Source of the DNA: Microbacterium sp.
GTDB lineage: Bacteria; Actinomycetota; Actinomycetes; Actinomycetales; Microbacteriaceae
Reading direction: 5' to 3'
Assembly: GCA_029239635.1 (NCBI GenBank)
Contig: JARBUN010000009.1
Coordinates: 1 to 41,116, forward strand
Length of the DNA stretch: 41,116 nucleotides
Below the pieces are notes generated by a model. The model worked only from the letters and a program-made list of their open reading frames with translations. It was not told the origin of the DNA and did not search any database. The stretch's first letter is position 1. Every line of letters starts with the position of its first letter. Shown one piece after another: positions 16,846 through 24,557 of this stretch. Made by a program: the position numbers and the translations under genes.

Positions 16846-16971
16846 TCCGGGACGGCGGGGCGCGGCATCCGGATGCCGTCCGTGACGTGCGTGGCTGGGC
16901 CGTCCTGCCCGGGACCGGCGACCGTGTCAAGGATCTGGCCCGATCCGACCACACCGCACAAGCTGGCGCGC

Positions 16972-18018
16972 GTGACCGACGGCGACCATCCCCCCTTCCC
17001 CCTGCTGCTCGCGCCCGATACGGCCGGCCTCGAAGACGTGCTCGCGGCGCTGAGGGGAGCGGATGCCGTCGACGACCTCGGCACCGATGTTCCCGCCACG
17101 CTCGCCTGGGTGACGGGCTTCGCCCGGCCTTCCTCGCTGGCGGCGACCTGGGAGCTGCTGGCCTCGGTCGCCGCGCGCGACGTCGCCGCGGCCCGGATGC
17201 TGGAGCCGCACCTCGACGCGCTCGCGATCCTCGACGAAGCCGCCGCGGCCGGCTTCGCGCCGATGCTCGACACGAGCGGGTCATGGGGGGTCTTCGCCGC
17301 CGAGGGACCGGGGATGCGGCTCGAAGCGACACAGGATGCCGGAACCTGGACGCTGCGCGGCACGAAACCCTGGTGCTCGCTCGCCGCCGACCTCGACCGT
17401 GCGCTGGTGACCGCCTGGGTCGACGACGAGCGCCGGCAGCTCTTCGCGCTCGACCTGCGCGACCCGGCCGTGACGGCGCGCTCGGGACCGTGGCACGCCC
17501 GCGGACTCGATCGCGTCGTCAGCGCACCGATCGACGTCGACGGCGCTCCGGCCGTCCCGGTGGGGGAGGCCGGGTGGTACCTGCGCCGCCCGGGGTTCGC
17601 GCACGGCGGCGTGGGCGTCGCGGCGTGCTGGTGGGGCGGCGCCGTTCCCCTGCGCGACGCGCTCGCCGCGGCGGCGGCGGGGGAACGCGCCGACCAGCTC
17701 TCCCGCGTGCACCTCGCCCGCGCCGACGTGGCCCTGTGGGCCGCGCGGGCCGTGCTCGTCGAGACCGCGACGGTGTTCGGCGCCGGGGGGTCGGCATCCC
17801 AGGGCCTGCGGGCGAACCGTGCGCGCACCGTCGTCGCCGACGCGGTCGAGACGGTCGTCGCCGAGTCGGCGCGCGCCCTCGGCCCCGCCCCGCTCGTCGC
17901 CGACGAGGCGCACGCCCGCCGGGTCGCGGATCTGCAGGTCTACGTCCGGCAGCACCACGCCGATCGTGACCTCGCGAGGATCGGCGCCGACATCGCGGCG
18001 GGAAACGCCGCATGGTGA
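16972..18018 (+). CDS. Acyl-CoA dehydrogenase-like protein
   Basis: 348 residues with the acyl-CoA dehydrogenase fold: a helical N-terminal half, then the FAD-contact beta domain at about 100-190 (GSWGVFAAEGPGMRLEATQDAGTWTLRGTKPWCSLAADLDRALVTA), and a helical C-terminus with a VYVRQHHADRDLARIG ending typical of the family. It is shorter than catalytic members, and the usual active-site Glu is not evident. The GTG at 16972 is the most plausible start, but an ATG at 16873 is in frame, so the N-terminus is uncertain. Its stop overlaps the next gene by 7 bases. It opens the PIG-L/NodS/glycosyltransferase cassette and presumably oxidises or binds an acyl or polyketide-like substrate made there. 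Confidence 0.78.
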   Translation: MTDGDHPPFPLLLAPDTAGLEDVLAALRGADAVDDLGTDVPATLAWVTGFARPSSLAATWELLASVAARDVAAARMLEPHLDALAILDEAAAAGFAPMLDTSGSWGVFAAEGPGMRLEATQDAGTWTLRGTKPWCSLAADLDRALVTAWVDDERRQLFALDLRDPAVTARSGPWHARGLDRVVSAPIDVDGAPAVPVGEAGWYLRRPGFAHGGVGVAACWWGGAVPLRDALAAAAAGERADQLSRVHLARADVALWAARAVLVETATVFGAGGSASQGLRANRARTVVADAVETVVAESARALGPAPLVADEAHARRVADLQVYVRQHHADRDLARIGADIAAGNAAW

Positions 18019-19406
18019 GCTTCGACCACCGCGACCCCGGCACCCCCGAGGACGTCTGGACCGCCGCCCTCGCCCGCGACCTCCCCGTCCTCGACCTCGA
18101 CGTCGATCAGGTGATCGTGGTGGCCGCGCACCCCGACGACGAGAGCCTCGGAGCGGCGGGACTCCTCGCCATCGCCGCGGCGCGCGGCATCCCGATCGCC
18201 CTCATCGTCGTGACCGACGGAGAGGGCTCGCACCCCGATTCGCCCACCCACACTCCCGCGGCCCTGGCGGTGCGCCGCCGCCGCGAGCTGCTCGCCGCGA
18301 CCGGGATCCTCGGCCTGGCGGAGCCGCCGATCTTCCTCGGCCTGCCCGACGGCCGCACGGACGAGCACCGGGATGCCATCTCCGCGGCCCTCCGCGACGC
18401 CCTCGACCACGCGGGGCGGCAGCGCGTGCTCGTGCTCTCGCCGTGGCGCGGCGACGGGCACCGCGATCACCGCGTGGTGGGCGAGATCGTCGAGCAGGTC
18501 TGCGCCGCGCGCGCCCTCGAGCAGCGCTCCGGCACGGTCCGCTCGCGCGCGTTTCCCATCTGGCTGTGGCATTGGGGCGCCCCGGACGACGTGCCGTGGG
18601 AGCAGGCCGAGCGCCTGCCGCTCAGCCCGGAGATCCAGGATGCCAAGACCCGCGCGCTCGCCGCGCACACGAGCCAGATCCTCCCGCTGTCCACCGCGCC
18701 CGGCGACGAGGAGATGATCCACGCCCGCATGCGCGCGCACTTCACCCGAGACGTCGAGGTGTTCTTCGCTCCCGACGCGACCCCGACCGCCGGCAGCGTC
18801 GGGAGCGTCGGTCAGGAGTACTTCGACGACATGTACGCCCGCCACGACGATCCCTGGGGCTTCGATTCGCGCTGGTACGAGCAGCGCAAGCGAGCGGTCC
18901 TGCTCGCCGCTCTGCCCCGACAGCGGTACCGCGCGACGTTCGAGGCGGGGTGCTCGACGGGGGCGCTGACCGCAGCCCTGGCGGAGCGGAGCGATCGGGT
19001 GCTCGCGGTCGACCTCGCCCCCGCCGCCCTCGACCGGGCCCGGGCGCGCGTGGCGGCCCGGGAGCACGTCGAGCTGCGCCGCGCGACGCTCCCCGGCGAC
19101 TGGCCCGAGGGCGCGTTCGACCTCGTCGTGCTGTCGGAGGTGGCGTACTACTGGGCCGGTCCCGACCTCGACCGCGGTCTCACCGCGAGCGTCGGCTCGT
19201 TGAGCGAGGACGGTCATCTCGTGGCCTGTCACTGGCGGCATCCGGTCGCCGAGTACCCGCGGACCGGTGACGAGGTGCACGACGCGCTCGCCGCGCGTCC
19301 CGATCTGGTGCGGCTCGTCCGGCACGAGGAGGAGGACTTCGTGCTCGAGGTCTTCGCCCGCCCGGGGGCGCGGTCGGTGGCGGCCGAGGCGGGGCTTCTC
19401 GCGTGA
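18012..19406 (+). CDS. Bifunctional PIG-L deacetylase / NodS-like SAM methyltransferase
   Basis: 464 residues, two enzymes in one chain. Residues 30-255 are a PIG-L (LmbE) zinc N-deacetylase with AHPDDE (39-44) and the third zinc ligand region GHRDHRVVG (149-157). Residues 267-445 are a class I methyltransferase of NodS type: YFDDMYARHDDPWGFDSRWYEQRK, the SAM-binding FEAGCSTGALT (310-320), and FDLVVLSEVAYYW. NodS proteins N-methylate deacetylated chitooligosaccharides, so the pair suggests deacetylation of an N-acetyl sugar followed by N-methylation; this is inference. It overlaps both neighbours (7 bases upstream, GTGA downstream). Confidence 0.9.
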   Translation: MVSFDHRDPGTPEDVWTAALARDLPVLDLDVDQVIVVAAHPDDESLGAAGLLAIAAARGIPIALIVVTDGEGSHPDSPTHTPAALAVRRRRELLAATGILGLAEPPIFLGLPDGRTDEHRDAISAALRDALDHAGRQRVLVLSPWRGDGHRDHRVVGEIVEQVCAARALEQRSGTVRSRAFPIWLWHWGAPDDVPWEQAERLPLSPEIQDAKTRALAAHTSQILPLSTAPGDEEMIHARMRAHFTRDVEVFFAPDATPTAGSVGSVGQEYFDDMYARHDDPWGFDSRWYEQRKRAVLLAALPRQRYRATFEAGCSTGALTAALAERSDRVLAVDLAPAALDRARARVAAREHVELRRATLPGDWPEGAFDLVVLSEVAYYWAGPDLDRGLTASVGSLSEDGHLVACHWRHPVAEYPRTGDEVHDALAARPDLVRLVRHEEEDFVLEVFARPGARSVAAEAGLLA

Positions 19407-20122
19407 GGGCGGTGGCGGTGGTGATCCCCGCGCACGACGAGGAGGCGCTGATCGGGCGCTGCCTCGCCGCGGTGACCCGCGCGGTAGCGCGCGCCCGCGA
19501 GCGGGAGCCGGGTCTCGTCGCGACCGTCGTGGTCGTGCTCGACGCCTGCACCGACACGACCGCCCCGCAGGTGCGGCGTTGGCCGGTGGACGTGCTCGAG
19601 ATCTCGGCACGGAACGTCGGCACCGCCCGGCGCGTCGGCATCGCGCACGCGCTGGCGTCCCTCGGTTCGGCGCCGGAGGGCACGTGGATCGCGATGACGG
19701 ATGCCGACACGCTCGTGCCCCGGGACTGGGTCACCCACCAGCTCGACCTGATGGATGCCGGGATCGACCTCGTCCTCGGAACGGTCCGCCCCGACTTCGC
19801 CGACCTCAGCGCCCGCCACGCGGCGTACTGGCGCGCGACGCACCCGCGCGGTCGGCCGCCGGGCAACGTGCACGGGGCCAATCTCGGCGTGCGGGCGAGC
19901 ACCTACGCCGAAGCCGGCGGCATCCGGGATCTCATCGAGCACGAGGATGTCGCGCTCGTTCGCGCGGTGCGCGCCCTCGGCGCGCGCGAACACGCCAGCG
20001 ACGTGCACGAGGTCGAGACCTCGGGGCGCTTCACGGGGAGGACTCCGGGCGGGTATGCCGCGTTCCTCCGGCGCGTGCACGCCTGGGTCGACGCGGAACC
20101 GCTCGCCGCTCCCGGCGCCTGA
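19403..20122 (+). CDS. Family 2 glycosyltransferase
   Basis: 239 residues, a soluble GT-A fold. It has AVVIPAHDEEALIGRCL (5-21), VVVLDACTDTTA (44-54), the metal-binding DAD (100-102) in AMTDADTLVPRDWV, and an acceptor-side NVHGANLGVRASTYAEAGG plus EHEDVALVRAV. There is no membrane helix. The GTG start overlaps the preceding stop (GTGA). As last gene of the cassette it would transfer a sugar to, or build, the molecule handled by the deacetylase/methyltransferase. Donor and acceptor are unknown. Confidence 0.9.
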   Translation: MRAVAVVIPAHDEEALIGRCLAAVTRAVARAREREPGLVATVVVVLDACTDTTAPQVRRWPVDVLEISARNVGTARRVGIAHALASLGSAPEGTWIAMTDADTLVPRDWVTHQLDLMDAGIDLVLGTVRPDFADLSARHAAYWRATHPRGRPPGNVHGANLGVRASTYAEAGGIRDLIEHEDVALVRAVRALGAREHASDVHEVETSGRFTGRTPGGYAAFLRRVHAWVDAEPLAAPGA

Positions 20123-21436: not shown

Positions 21437-22660
21437 TCAGGCGCGGCCCGCGTGCACGGCCTCGAGGGCCTCGGCATCCGCGTCGCTCATGCCCTCGATC
21501 GGCTCGCCGTTCCAGACGATGTCGTCGCCGAGCGCCGCGAGGATCTCTTTGCGGTCGCCGTGGGAGATCTTCGCGCCGTGCACGATCGTGGCCGGGCTCC
21601 AGAGCATCGCCGCGCCGTCCCACCAGCCGGCTCCCACATCGCGCACGTGCAGCAGGTCGTGCAGGGTCTTCGGGAGGTGCGACAGCGGCTCGGTGAAGGC
21701 GTCCGCGAGCACGGCGAGCGTGATCTGGCGCTCGGTGCCGGGGATCGCGACCACCGGTTCGGCGAGTTCGCCCTGGATGGCCTTCGACACGTCCTCGGCC
21801 TCGAGCATGATCACGCCGTTCGTCGGGCGCGGGTTGCACTCGATGATCTTGTAGTCGGGGGCCGCCTCGGTGCCGTGGTCGACGAAGTCGAACGAGATCT
21901 GGCCGGTGAAACCCGGGTCCAGGGTGTCGACCAGCTGCTGGGTGTAGCGCAGGGTGTCGGTGCTGTCGATGGCGATGAACGCGATCGCCGTCGAGTGCGC
22001 CCACTGCTCGGCGGCCTTGTACGTCGTGTGCGCCTGGACCGTGCCGTCGACGACGACGCTGTAGGTGCAGATCATGGGGCCGTCGACGAACGGCTGCACG
22101 AGCCACGGCTGCTCGACGGTCGGCACGCACTCCTCGACGGGGATCTTCCCGGCGAGGGGGCCCGTGTTCGTGAGCAGGCCCACGCCGCCGCGCGAGAACG
22201 CCGCACGGGCGAAGTAGCGGGGGAAGCTCTCGATCGCGGTGCGCAGCTCTTCGGGAGAGGTGACGATGACCGTCTCGGGGATGGGCACCCCGGCATCCTG
22301 AGCCAGCCGCTGGAAGCTCGCCTTGTCGTGAAGGCGGGCGAGGTCGGCGAAGCTCCCGGAGAACAGGCGGACGCCGGCGGGGAGATCGGCCACGCGCGCG
22401 GCGAGGTAGAAGACCTCCTCGAACGTGGGGATGATGAGGTCGATGTCGTGCTTGTCGACGAAGTCGCTCACCGTCGCGATGAAGGCGTCGGTCTCGAAGC
22501 GCGGCGACGGGGTGGCGAGATGCCCGGCGAGGAAGCGCGAGTGGTTGCCCACCGCTCCGTCGTAGGTGTCGCTCGCGAAGACCGTGTGGCCGACGCTCCC
22601 GAGCTTGCGGATGAGGTCGAGAGCGAACGTGTTGCGGGAACTGGTGACGAGCACGCGCAT
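21437..22660 (-). CDS. ATP-grasp family ligase
   Basis: 407 residues. It starts MRVLVTSSRNTFALDLIRKLG with a pre-ATP-grasp Rossmann domain, then LIIPTFEEVFYLAA, the HDKASFQRLAQDAGVPIPETV entry to the ATP-grasp fold (from about 111), an FARAAFSRGG loop, and the metal-binding IIECNPRPTNGVIM near 290. This is the carbamoyl-phosphate-synthase-like/biotin-carboxylase type used to join a carboxylate to an amine. The ATG at 22658-22660 is chosen by homology; the frame stays open upstream. It is divergent from the circularly permuted ATP-grasp operon with 118 bases between, so the two may be co-regulated. The substrate is unknown. Confidence 0.85.
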   Translation of the reverse strand: MRVLVTSSRNTFALDLIRKLGSVGHTVFASDTYDGAVGNHSRFLAGHLATPSPRFETDAFIATVSDFVDKHDIDLIIPTFEEVFYLAARVADLPAGVRLFSGSFADLARLHDKASFQRLAQDAGVPIPETVIVTSPEELRTAIESFPRYFARAAFSRGGVGLLTNTGPLAGKIPVEECVPTVEQPWLVQPFVDGPMICTYSVVVDGTVQAHTTYKAAEQWAHSTAIAFIAIDSTDTLRYTQQLVDTLDPGFTGQISFDFVDHGTEAAPDYKIIECNPRPTNGVIMLEAEDVSKAIQGELAEPVVAIPGTERQITLAVLADAFTEPLSHLPKTLHDLLHVRDVGAGWWDGAAMLWSPATIVHGAKISHGDRKEILAALGDDIVWNGEPIEGMSDADAEALEAVHAGRA

Positions 22661-22766
22661 GGAGGCACCCTTGGTCGTGGCGGCAGACGTAGGCGTCACT
22701 CTATCCATCCGCTGTGCCCTTGCGGCAGACGGCGGTGGGGAAACGTGTCGGCAACACGGCCCTGAG

Positions 22767-22772
22767 TAGAGT
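22767..22772 (+). promoter_or_regulatory. Candidate -10 box, leaderless ATP-grasp transcript
   Basis: TAGAGT is followed by 6 bases and the ATG at 22779, with TGTCGG 16 bases upstream as a poor -35. No ribosome site precedes the ATG. On the other strand another TAGAGT (22698-22703) could serve the divergent ligase gene. Confidence 0.5.
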
Positions 22773-22778
22773 CGTCGC

Positions 22779-24557
22779 ATGGGTGACCTGTTCGACGGCT
22801 ACGGCTCCACGCTGGCGCCGCGCAAGACCGCTTCCGGCATCCCGGCCTACGACGAGATGTTCGGCAGTCCGGCGGGCCCGGGCGATGCCGCACCCTCGCG
22901 AGAGGCGTATCGGGAGCTGTACCAGACGCTCGCCAAGATGACGCAGGAAGAGCTGCGCGGTCGGACCGAGTCCCTCGCCAGCTCGTACCTCGCGCAGGGC
23001 GTGACGTTCGACTTCGCCGGCGAGGAACGGCCCTTCCCGCTCGACGCGGTGCCCCGCGTCATCGCGTACGACGAGTGGTCCCGGATCGAGGCGGGCGTGA
23101 AACAGCGCGTCCGCGCGCTCGAGGCCTTCCTCGACGACGCCTACGGCAATCAGCACTGCGTGCGCGACGGCATCCTGCCCGCCGGTCTCATCTCGTCGTC
23201 GCAGTACTTCTATCGCCAGGCGGCCGGCATCCGCAGCGCCAACGGCGTGCGCATCCAGGTCTCGGGGATCGACCTCATCCGCGACGAGCACGGCGAGATG
23301 CGTGTGCTCGAAGACAACGTGCGCGTGCCCTCGGGCGTCTCGTACGTCATCTCGAACCGTCGCGTCATGGCGCAGACCCTGCCCGAGCTGTTCGTCTCGA
23401 TGCGGGTGCGCCCGGTCGGCGACTACCCCAACAAGCTGCTCGCCGCCCTCCGCGCGTCGGCCCCGCCCGGGATCGACGACCCGAACATCGTCGTGCTCAC
23501 CCCGGGTGTCTACAACTCGGCCTACTTCGAGCACACGCTGCTCGCGCGCCTCATGGGCGTCGAGCTCGTCGAGGGCCGTGACCTGCTCTGCATCGGCGGC
23601 AAGGTGTTCATGCGCACCACCCGCGGGCCGCAGCGCGTGGACGTGATCTACCGCCGCGTCGACGACGACTTCCTCGACCCGCTGCAGTTCCGCGCCGACT
23701 CGATGCTGGGTGCTCCCGGCCTCATGCTCGCCGCGCGCCTCGGCAACGTCACGATCGCCAACGCGGTCGGCAACGGCGTCGCCGACGACAAGCTGCTCTA
23801 CACCTACGTGCCCGACCTCATCCGGTACTACCTGGCCGAGGAACCGATCCTCAAGAACGTCGACACCTGGCGCCTCGAGGATCCGGGCGCCCTCGAAGAG
23901 GTGCTCGACCGCCTGCCCGAACTGGTGGTCAAGCCCGTCGACGGGTCCGGGGGCAAGGGACTGGTCGTGGGACCGGATGCCTCGCCCGCCGAGCTCGACG
24001 CGCTCCGCAAGCGCCTGCTCGCCGACCCCCGCGGGTGGATCGCGCAACCGGTCGTCATGCTCTCGACCATCCCGACGCTGGTGGAGGACGGGATGCGTCC
24101 GCGCCACGCCGACCTGCGTCCCTTCGCCGTGAACGACGGCGACGACATCTGGGTGCTGCCCGGCGGCCTCACGCGGGTCGCGCTCCCCGAGGGGCAGCTC
24201 GTCGTGAACTCCAGCCAGGGCGGCGGGTCCAAGGACACGTGGGTCGTCGGCGGTTCCGCCCCCTCGCACGTCGAGTACGGCCAAGGCCAGGGCGTCTCGG
24301 GTCTCGTCGCCGATCAGGCGGCGGTGACGGAGTCGATCCCGATCATCTACGACGGCCAGCCGGCTCCCGCCACCGCTCCCCGCGATCCGCGCGCGGGCGG
24401 TCGCGAGCAGCAGGAACAGCAGCAGCAGGACGCCGCCGTGGAGCACGGCCCGCAGGCCGAGCAGCAGCAGCAACAGGCCGAGCGACGGGTCCCGGACCCT
24501 TCGACGAGCTCAGGGTCCTCGACCGGCTCGGGGATCGAGGAGGTCGGGTCATGCTGA
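22779..24557 (+). CDS. Circularly permuted ATP-grasp type 2 protein with low-complexity tail
   Basis: 592 residues; relatives of this COG2308 (DUF404/DUF407) family end near 520. Family marks are YDEMFG (23-28), SRIEAGVKQRVRALEAFLDDAYGNQHC, YFYRQAAGI, DLIRDEHGEMRVLEDNVRVPSGVSYVISNR, and VVKPVDGSGGKGLVVGP (the nucleotide-binding Lys/Gly loop). These are predicted amidoligases that add amino acids to peptides or small molecules. Residues after about 527 are Gln-rich (EQQEQQQQ, EQQQQQAERR) and then encode DPSTSSGS from a palindromic DNA repeat. The stop overlaps the alpha-E gene by 7 bases. Confidence 0.9.
   Translation: MGDLFDGYGSTLAPRKTASGIPAYDEMFGSPAGPGDAAPSREAYRELYQTLAKMTQEELRGRTESLASSYLAQGVTFDFAGEERPFPLDAVPRVIAYDEWSRIEAGVKQRVRALEAFLDDAYGNQHCVRDGILPAGLISSSQYFYRQAAGIRSANGVRIQVSGIDLIRDEHGEMRVLEDNVRVPSGVSYVISNRRVMAQTLPELFVSMRVRPVGDYPNKLLAALRASAPPGIDDPNIVVLTPGVYNSAYFEHTLLARLMGVELVEGRDLLCIGGKVFMRTTRGPQRVDVIYRRVDDDFLDPLQFRADSMLGAPGLMLAARLGNVTIANAVGNGVADDKLLYTYVPDLIRYYLAEEPILKNVDTWRLEDPGALEEVLDRLPELVVKPVDGSGGKGLVVGPDASPAELDALRKRLLADPRGWIAQPVVMLSTIPTLVEDGMRPRHADLRPFAVNDGDDIWVLPGGLTRVALPEGQLVVNSSQGGGSKDTWVVGGSAPSHVEYGQGQGVSGLVADQAAVTESIPIIYDGQPAPATAPRDPRAGGREQQEQQQQDAAVEHGPQAEQQQQQAERRVPDPSTSSGSSTGSGIEEVGSC
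24406..24479 (+). repeat. CAG-rich imperfect repeat tract inside coding sequence
   Basis: Two clusters of CAG/CAA/GAA codons encode the Gln-rich tail of the ATP-grasp protein. Such tracts vary in length between strains. Positions are approximate at the edges. Confidence 0.6.
24494..24518. repeat. Palindromic repeat with CTTCGACGAGCTCAGG core, inside a gene
   Basis: GGACCCT (24494-24500) and AGGGTCC (24512-24518) are perfect arms around TCGACGAGCTC. Elements with this core (CCTTCGACaAGCTCAGG type) are scattered through many GC-rich genomes, normally between genes. Here it is read through in frame as DPSTSSGS near the C-terminus of the ATP-grasp protein. Confidence 0.75.

Follow-up and report, generated by a model that had tools for sequence, protein, structure and literature searches.

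A three-gene cassette encoding four predicted activities lies at positions 16972 to 20122 of a 41,116-nucleotide stretch of Microbacterium sp. DNA (JARBUN010000009.1), which is called the window here and is one entire contig of a 3.57-Mb assembly (207 contigs, 85% completeness). The cassette is real, widely conserved and biosynthetic, and its members come from known enzyme families; no description of it was found in open-access literature. We tentatively propose, with a probability of roughly 0.4, that it encodes a small-molecule pathway with glycosylation, de-N-acetylation, N-methylation and oxygenation steps.

The three genes are on the + strand. The first (16972-18018, GTG start) encodes a 348-amino-acid flavoenzyme with the fold of acyl-CoA dehydrogenases (ACADs), which is probably a group D-type flavin monooxygenase and not an acyl-CoA dehydrogenase. 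The second (18012-19406) encodes a 464-amino-acid protein in which a PIG-L deacetylase is fused to a NodS-like S-adenosylmethionine (SAM) methyltransferase. Its PIG-L domain core (PF02585; 18114-18500, +) has intact HPDDE and HxDH motifs, and the methyltransferase domain (PF05401; 18843-19226, +) was located with Pfam. The third (19403-20122) encodes a 239-amino-acid family 2 glycosyltransferase (GT2) of the GT-A fold, with DxD and ED motifs. Consecutive open reading frames (ORFs) overlap by 7 bases (first and second) and 4 bases (second and third). A longer first ORF with an ATG start at 16873 is possible; 16972 is the likelier start because the flavoenzyme frame of a relative (G024) opens only four codons before the equivalent of 16975. 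In the Pfam scan, the fused protein scored 92.7 bits for PIG-L (PF02585, cut-off 28.2) and 54.9 bits for NodS, and the third protein scored 52.5 bits for Glycos_transf_2. The sole match of the first protein was the ACAD middle domain at 25.0 bits, below the cut-off of 33.3. None of the three proteins rose above a cut-off in the NCBIfam scan, and the first had no match there at all. The original prediction was right about the gene content, the PIG-L/NodS fusion and the gene overlap.

The three overlapping genes are not a chance arrangement, because they occur together in the same 16 of 58 genomes and because all four activities are found at 64 of 80 distant loci. The 58 genomes of the near survey were the window's own, 34 of the genus and 23 of the order. 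Strong matches to the fused protein (E 1.4e-63 or better) were obtained in 16 of them, and the flavoenzyme and the glycosyltransferase were present in the same 16. Beyond these, the flavoenzyme search matched G007 (residues 1-79 only) and G039, and the glycosyltransferase search matched G007 (residues 99-238 only) and G026 (36% identity, weak). In G007 (L156, 4266-4898), the initial part of the flavoenzyme is joined in frame to the last part of the glycosyltransferase, forming a natural fusion. This scar, which fits a single deletion within the cassette, sits between the conserved upstream hydrolase and downstream ATP-grasp genes; the 10 kb retrieved did not show the downstream alcohol dehydrogenase. 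G024 and G027 have the same hydrolase and alcohol dehydrogenase next to the cassette as the window, and no flanking window gene was found within 15 kb in G015. The glycosyltransferase lies about 2.5 kb off on the other strand in G038, and the flavoenzyme of G048 is on a separate contig. G039 carries a cassette-type flavoenzyme with none of the other cassette genes within about 5 kb.

For the distant loci, an alignment of the methyltransferase was scanned against 84,980 species genomes, and at least 590 relatives were confirmed. The best 80 of these, chosen by similarity to a Deinococcus methyltransferase and hence not a random sample, were kept, and stretches of up to 10 kb per side were fetched around the methyltransferases. 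The 64 complete loci belong to five phyla, and Deinococcota was added by a plasmid. The cassette is therefore found in Actinomycetota, Bacteroidota, Cyanobacteriota, Verrucomicrobiota, Pseudomonadota and Deinococcota. The gene order is conserved beyond close relatives, in six phyla, although the glycosyltransferase usually faces the other three genes outside the window's phylum. Over 84 loci, the pairwise distances within each of the four protein families are correlated with those of the others (r 0.89-0.95, against at most 0.18 in 500 permutations). Within the window's phylum, the methyltransferase was matched at E <= 1e-20 in 27 of 246 genomes.

The remaining 16 of the 80 loci were incomplete: the glycosyltransferase was undetected in five, only the flavoenzyme and methyltransferase were seen in five, the flavoenzyme was undetected in three, PIG-L was undetected in two, and the methyltransferase stood alone in one. 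A contig end falls on the relevant side at L062, L071 and L119. At L072, a Granulicella metagenome-assembled genome (MAG), the 9 kb 5' of the methyltransferase are without flavoenzyme or PIG-L. In the fetched stretches, the flavoenzyme was undetected at L073 and L088, the glycosyltransferase at L094, L103 and L108, and PIG-L at L075 and L102. Five Methylobacterium loci (L082, L092, L095, L100 and L106) have the flavoenzyme and methyltransferase with PIG-L and the glycosyltransferase undetected. In two of them (L100, 8633-12037; L092, 3239-6552), the pair is followed by cytochrome b561 and a molybdopterin oxidoreductase.

Plasmids also carry the cassette. A tblastn search with the fused protein returned 68 plasmid records, ten of which were opened. 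The flavoenzyme, PIG-L, methyltransferase and glycosyltransferase are adjacent in the annotated records of Deinococcus, Acinetobacter, Pandoraea, Bradyrhizobium, Sulfitobacter and Komagataeibacter. The Kitasatospora record has the first three annotated and the glycosyltransferase by search, and all four were found by search in the Nostoc (unannotated), Streptomyces and Acinetobacter baumannii records. Three Acinetobacter 'plasmids' of 3.7-4.1 Mb (H15, H19 and H20) look like mislabelled chromosomes.

The AlphaFold model of the flavoenzyme (mean predicted local distance difference test score 92.8) has a complete ACAD fold and aligned in VIA-align with ACADs and DszC/TdsC at Z 31-32.5 over approximately 330 residues. 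The first two Foldseek matches of the model were the nitrososynthase DnmZ and the sugar N-oxygenase KijD3. Forty-seven cassette flavoenzymes were aligned with two FadE proteins of the same genome, which fixed the position of the glutamate in the EGT motif of the C-terminal domain. We take this residue to be the catalytic base of acyl-CoA dehydrogenases. It is present in none of the 47 cassette sequences, all of which have Gln327; His80, Lys132 and Tyr203 are likewise invariant (47/47 each). When the profile of the 47 members was compared with solved structures, DszC chains were best over the full length (E 4e-31), followed by TdsC (9e-28) and a putative acyl-CoA dehydrogenase (1.8e-26); the sugar nitrososynthases KijD3 (3e-18) and 3mxl (8e-16) were weaker. 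Among NCBIfam models, SfnB was matched by 36/47 cassette flavoenzymes (best 2.5e-24), DszC by 33/47 (best 2e-24), 3-sulfinopropanoyl-CoA desulfinase by 29/47 and acryloyl-CoA reductase by 21/47 (best 1.9e-17). As a control, four FadE proteins of the window's own genome matched CoA-enzyme models best (E 2e-64 to 8e-106) and DszC at 1.5e-11 or worse. A fifth ACAD-like protein of this genome (L154; G000 C87) is monooxygenase-like; it matched the FadE16 model at 2e-31 and the SfnB and DszC models at 1e-22, in place of the usual CoA dehydrogenases. A dehydrogenase is unlikely because the catalytic glutamate is absent, the profile is nearest DszC, and an oxygenase-type reductase adjoins in some lineages. 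As judged from the sequences, the flavoenzyme is probably a flavin monooxygenase, a class that is favoured over dehydrogenase but not proved. The acyl step that had been proposed for the ACAD-like partner is accordingly unlikely, as the dehydrogenase base is missing and clustering of neighbouring genes, with representatives of 8 clusters inspected, gave no common acyl-handling neighbour. Aromatic hydroxylation and N-hydroxylation are known for group D enzymes (PMC5481743).

The catalytic motifs of the deacetylase and the glycosyltransferase are conserved. Among PIG-L relatives, the HPDDE-like motif is present in 93/96 and HxDH in 96/96, and the catalytic motifs of GT2 are kept across its relatives. 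Two further PIG-L genes lie near each other elsewhere in the window's own genome (G000 C117:63229-65374). The best solved chain for the profile of methyltransferase relatives was 4isc (E 4e-65), followed by NodS 3ofj (5e-29). PIG-L and the methyltransferase occupy one open frame in 27 of 104 loci and separate frames in 69; PIG-L was not detected in the other 8. The 27 fused loci comprise 16 from the window's order, three further actinobacteria, five of the Lewinella type, one Mucilaginibacter, one Pedobacter and one cyanobacterial Gloeobacterales MAG. We infer that the fusion arose more than once, and it is a Rosetta-stone sign of consecutive steps. In the model of the glycosyltransferase, the GT-A elements span residues 3 to 231 of 239, and 48/49 members match the TIGR04283 family. 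The structure of GT2 was also considered as a guide to donor and acceptor; its GT-A matches were near-tied (WrtF Z 22.7, 6p61 22.4, TarS 20.8 and others) and pointed to nothing specific.

A variant of the cassette lacks the deacetylase and has a reductase. Twenty-eight loci of the window's phylum were compared with 1.5-kb flanks, some cut by contig or stretch ends. All four families were present in eight, the flavoenzyme, methyltransferase and glycosyltransferase without PIG-L in 14, no glycosyltransferase in two, the flavoenzyme and methyltransferase in two, and the methyltransferase only in two (L135 and L148); PIG-L is also missing at L146 (G193). A pyridine-nucleotide flavoprotein adjoins the methyltransferase in 14/28 (13 of family f34 and one of f25), with the glycosyltransferase on the other side in 13. 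The two reductases that were scanned matched ferredoxin-NAD reductases of ring-hydroxylating oxygenases best (1e-59 and 3e-60), below the equivalog cut-off. PIG-L was absent from the stretches of all 14 reductase loci, including five examined over 19 kb. A genome-wide search of the 13 f34 genomes with the cassette PIG-L profile had no match at 1e-5 in 11 of them and weak ones (1e-7 and 1e-6) in two; the same search gave 1.9e-15 in the f25 genome and 7e-67 to 8e-75 in four control genomes. The verrucomicrobial locus L102 has the same form, methyltransferase then reductase with no PIG-L, and the Caulobacter locus L107 has both PIG-L and reductase. PIG-L is optional, because one family of the window's phylum has the flavoenzyme, methyltransferase, reductase and GT2 without it. 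The flavoenzyme, methyltransferase and glycosyltransferase look like the core, with a deacetylase that is common but replaceable. The deacetylase, on which a parallel with the rhizobial Nod enzymes depends, is missing in that family and at some other loci.

In the pathway that we propose, GT2 would attach a sugar to a small acceptor; this sugar is probably an N-acetylhexosamine, from which the PIG-L domain would strip the acetyl group. The fused NodS-like domain would methylate the freed amine, and the flavoenzyme would then oxygenate the product, plausibly at the methylated nitrogen. NodS methylates a freed amine. The order glycosyltransferase, PIG-L, methyltransferase is suggested by this chemistry and by the fusions, and the oxygenation step by the family affinity of the flavoenzyme. 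The variant without PIG-L would use a different donated sugar or modify a different site, and a reductase of its own accompanies the oxygenase. Because the cassette has no constant lipid, polymer or transport gene, its product is probably of low molecular weight and perhaps a protectant. A narrower version is doubtful: that the pathway, found on chromosomes and plasmids of six or more phyla, yields an amino-sugar conjugate that is both N-methylated and N-oxygenated (hydroxylamine, nitrone or nitroso) and belongs to an as yet unnamed class of small metabolites, and that a dedicated oxygenase reductase takes the place of the deacetylase in its second form.

Several observations weigh against the proposed pathway. 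The structural comparison does not separate the dehydrogenase from the monooxygenase class, because classical ACADs (Z up to 32.5) are tied in VIA-align with TdsC (31.7) and DszC (31.1); the Foldseek E-values of nitrososynthases and ACADs are also within tenfold in the first ten matches. The motif shared with DszC is partly general, with cysteine in 34/47 cassette sequences and KxFxSGA also in the FadE protein L150. The position of the C-terminal histidine of DszC, presumably a catalytic residue, is not conserved (proline in 30/47, histidine in 13/47). The SfnB model does not discriminate, since the FadE control L150 matches it at 3.2e-27, and the window flavoenzyme by itself matches no NCBIfam model. 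The four-gene form does not regularly include a reductase: one of the f34 type was seen in only two of loci L034-L121, in a survey that did not search directly for flavin reductases. PIG-L was undetected in 8 of the best 80 of at least 590 loci and in 18 of the 28 compared within the window's phylum, although contig or stretch ends cut some of these loci. The distance correlation, which is not corrected for species phylogeny, shows shared descent. A protectant role is weak because catalase and Dps occur in 3/88 loci each, despite stress genes on proteobacterial plasmids.

The genes around the cassette bear on the alternatives. ORFs neighbouring the cassette were clustered over 88 loci, in which the cassette families themselves were present in 77 to 88. 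The two other largest clusters inspected (63 and 24 loci) were antisense shadow ORFs of the cassette. The remaining clusters were in <=20/88 loci, mostly Hymenobacter only, and those spanning phyla were generic (short-chain dehydrogenase/reductase (SDR), histidine kinase and ABC-type). With representatives inspected for 8 of the first 40 clusters, no acyl-handling family was a common neighbour, and no polymerase, flippase, transport, degradative or uptake family was common to most of the loci. Near the cassette, the plasmid loci examined first carry genes such as those for catalase, Dps, trehalose and Ku/LigD. A general stress-island role was considered and rejected, as catalase and Dps are each in 3/88 loci, a count that takes in the query loci, and every other stress marker is just in the source locus. 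On the Deinococcus AJ005 plasmid (L034, 5560-7923), the flavoenzyme has an extra N-terminal domain of approximately 400 residues with no Pfam or NCBIfam match. This domain resembles a neighbouring protein (4.7e-15) that is itself a weak match to glycoside hydrolase family 1 (GH1) beta-glucosidases, and the fusion to a GH1-like-related domain suggests that the flavoenzyme is connected with sugar chemistry. In L066 and L070, relatives of the domain occur as separate proteins 5-7 kb away from the cassette.

It is unlikely that the cassette decorates the envelope or an exopolysaccharide, with GT2 placing a branch sugar on a glycan of the cell surface and the other enzymes modifying that sugar. Members of the glycosyltransferase family match exopolysaccharide and hopanoid glycosyltransferase models weakly, and the AJ005 plasmid and two Spirosoma loci have in common an SDR, two GH1-like proteins and a further glycosyltransferase near the cassette. 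However, the GT-A fold fills the 239-residue glycosyltransferase (a membrane predictor was not run), and no polymerase, flippase or transport family is shared by most loci. Still less likely is that a DszC/SfnB-like oxygenase and helper enzymes break down or detoxify an amino-sugar or sulfur compound of external origin. DszC and SfnB are the nearest named families of the flavoenzyme, and xenobiotics are substrates of many group D enzymes (PMC5481743). Glycosyltransfer and methylation are building steps, however, and degradative or uptake families are likewise not shared by most loci.

A Nod-factor-like glycolipid is improbable. The ACAD-like enzyme would here desaturate a fatty acyl chain put on a deacetylated amino sugar, before N-methylation. 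The domain names do parallel NodC, NodB and NodS, the flavoenzyme has the ACAD fold, and the methyltransferase profile matches NodS 3ofj. Against this, the dehydrogenase glutamate is absent from every cassette sequence, and since most loci have no family of neighbours in common, the cassette lacks a fixed acyltransferase, acyl carrier or exporter. The window methyltransferase scored 65.3 bits against the NodS equivalog NF041650 (cut-off 300), no NodC model was among the GT2 matches in the NCBIfam scan, and the polysaccharide deacetylase domain of the NodB type was absent from the Pfam scan of the cassette proteins. What stands of the Nod parallel in the original prediction is the order of glycosyltransferase, deacetylase and N-methyltransferase, which fits the fusions; by models and cut-offs the enzymes are not NodB, NodC or NodS. 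As an analogy, the Nod comparison is useful for some of the order of reactions, but it assigns no family, and that earlier interpretation is partly supported overall, for gene content and order but not for Nod family identity or the acyl step. A third glucosamine-based low-molecular-weight thiol pathway is highly improbable: glycosyltransferase then PIG-L deacetylase is the logic of MshA/MshB for mycothiol and BshA/BshB for bacillithiol, but the PIG-L domain is far below the cut-offs of BshB2 (45.5 of 195 bits) and MshB (23.9 of 224), the cassette has no cysteine ligase, and PIG-L is optional.

The open-access full texts searched gave neither a description of the cassette nor a product for it, and the sole related mention was of the neighbours of blsA (PMC9948694). 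In that paper, the partners of A. baumannii BlsA by STRING gene neighbourhood include LmbE, a glycosyl transferase and a SAM methyltransferase. Just bipA, katE and otsB of the STRING nominees are blue-light induced there, and section 5 proposes no function for the LmbE, glycosyl transferase and methyltransferase partners. In the A. baumannii record examined here, the four-gene cassette is followed after 0.8 kb by a BLUF-domain ORF (L167, 11649-12140), which fits the blsA neighbourhood named in PMC9948694; we infer that the blsA-neighbour genes are cassette members. Another BLUF gene lies approximately 6 kb upstream of the cassette on the Bradyrhizobium plasmid (L037). Elsewhere in the window, 21437-22780 (-) encodes an ATP-grasp-like protein with no Pfam family at E 0.01. 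Beside it, by reading, are an apparent circularly permuted ATP-grasp (22779-24557) and an alpha-E-like protein. These three ATP-grasp/alpha-E-type genes are also adjacent in G007 and G024, at 92-96% identity.

A unit that is kept together in six phyla probably makes something of general use. Its members carry misleading names, such as acyl-CoA dehydrogenase and nodulation methyltransferase. The cassette is compact enough for whole expression in a laboratory host, and its product is directly testable.

The proposed pathway resembles several known systems in part. It shares with NodC/NodB/NodS a putative order of glycosyltransfer, N-deacetylation and N-methylation and a methyltransferase of the NodS Pfam family. 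It differs in having a PIG-L fold instead of NodB, a 239-residue GT-A enzyme instead of the membrane protein NodC, no NodA, a methyltransferase below the NodS equivalog cut-off, and a distribution over six phyla. With MshB/BshB it shares the PIG-L family and the HPDDE/HxDH motifs; its scores are far below their cut-offs, and its partner is a methyltransferase, not a cysteine ligase. The entire 164-residue chain of PDB 4isc matches the cassette methyltransferase profile, but the listed name of that entry, 'Methyltransferase', gives no function. The flavoenzyme has the ACAD fold of acyl-CoA dehydrogenases without their catalytic glutamate. By sequence profile it is closest to DszC, and with the group D flavin monooxygenases (DszC and KijD3/DnmZ) it shares this fold, the lack of the dehydrogenase glutamate, DszC as the best match in the profile search, and an oxygenase-type reductase nearby in some lineages. 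From these it is set apart as a separate subfamily with invariant His80, Tyr203 and Gln327, and the window protein has no equivalog match.

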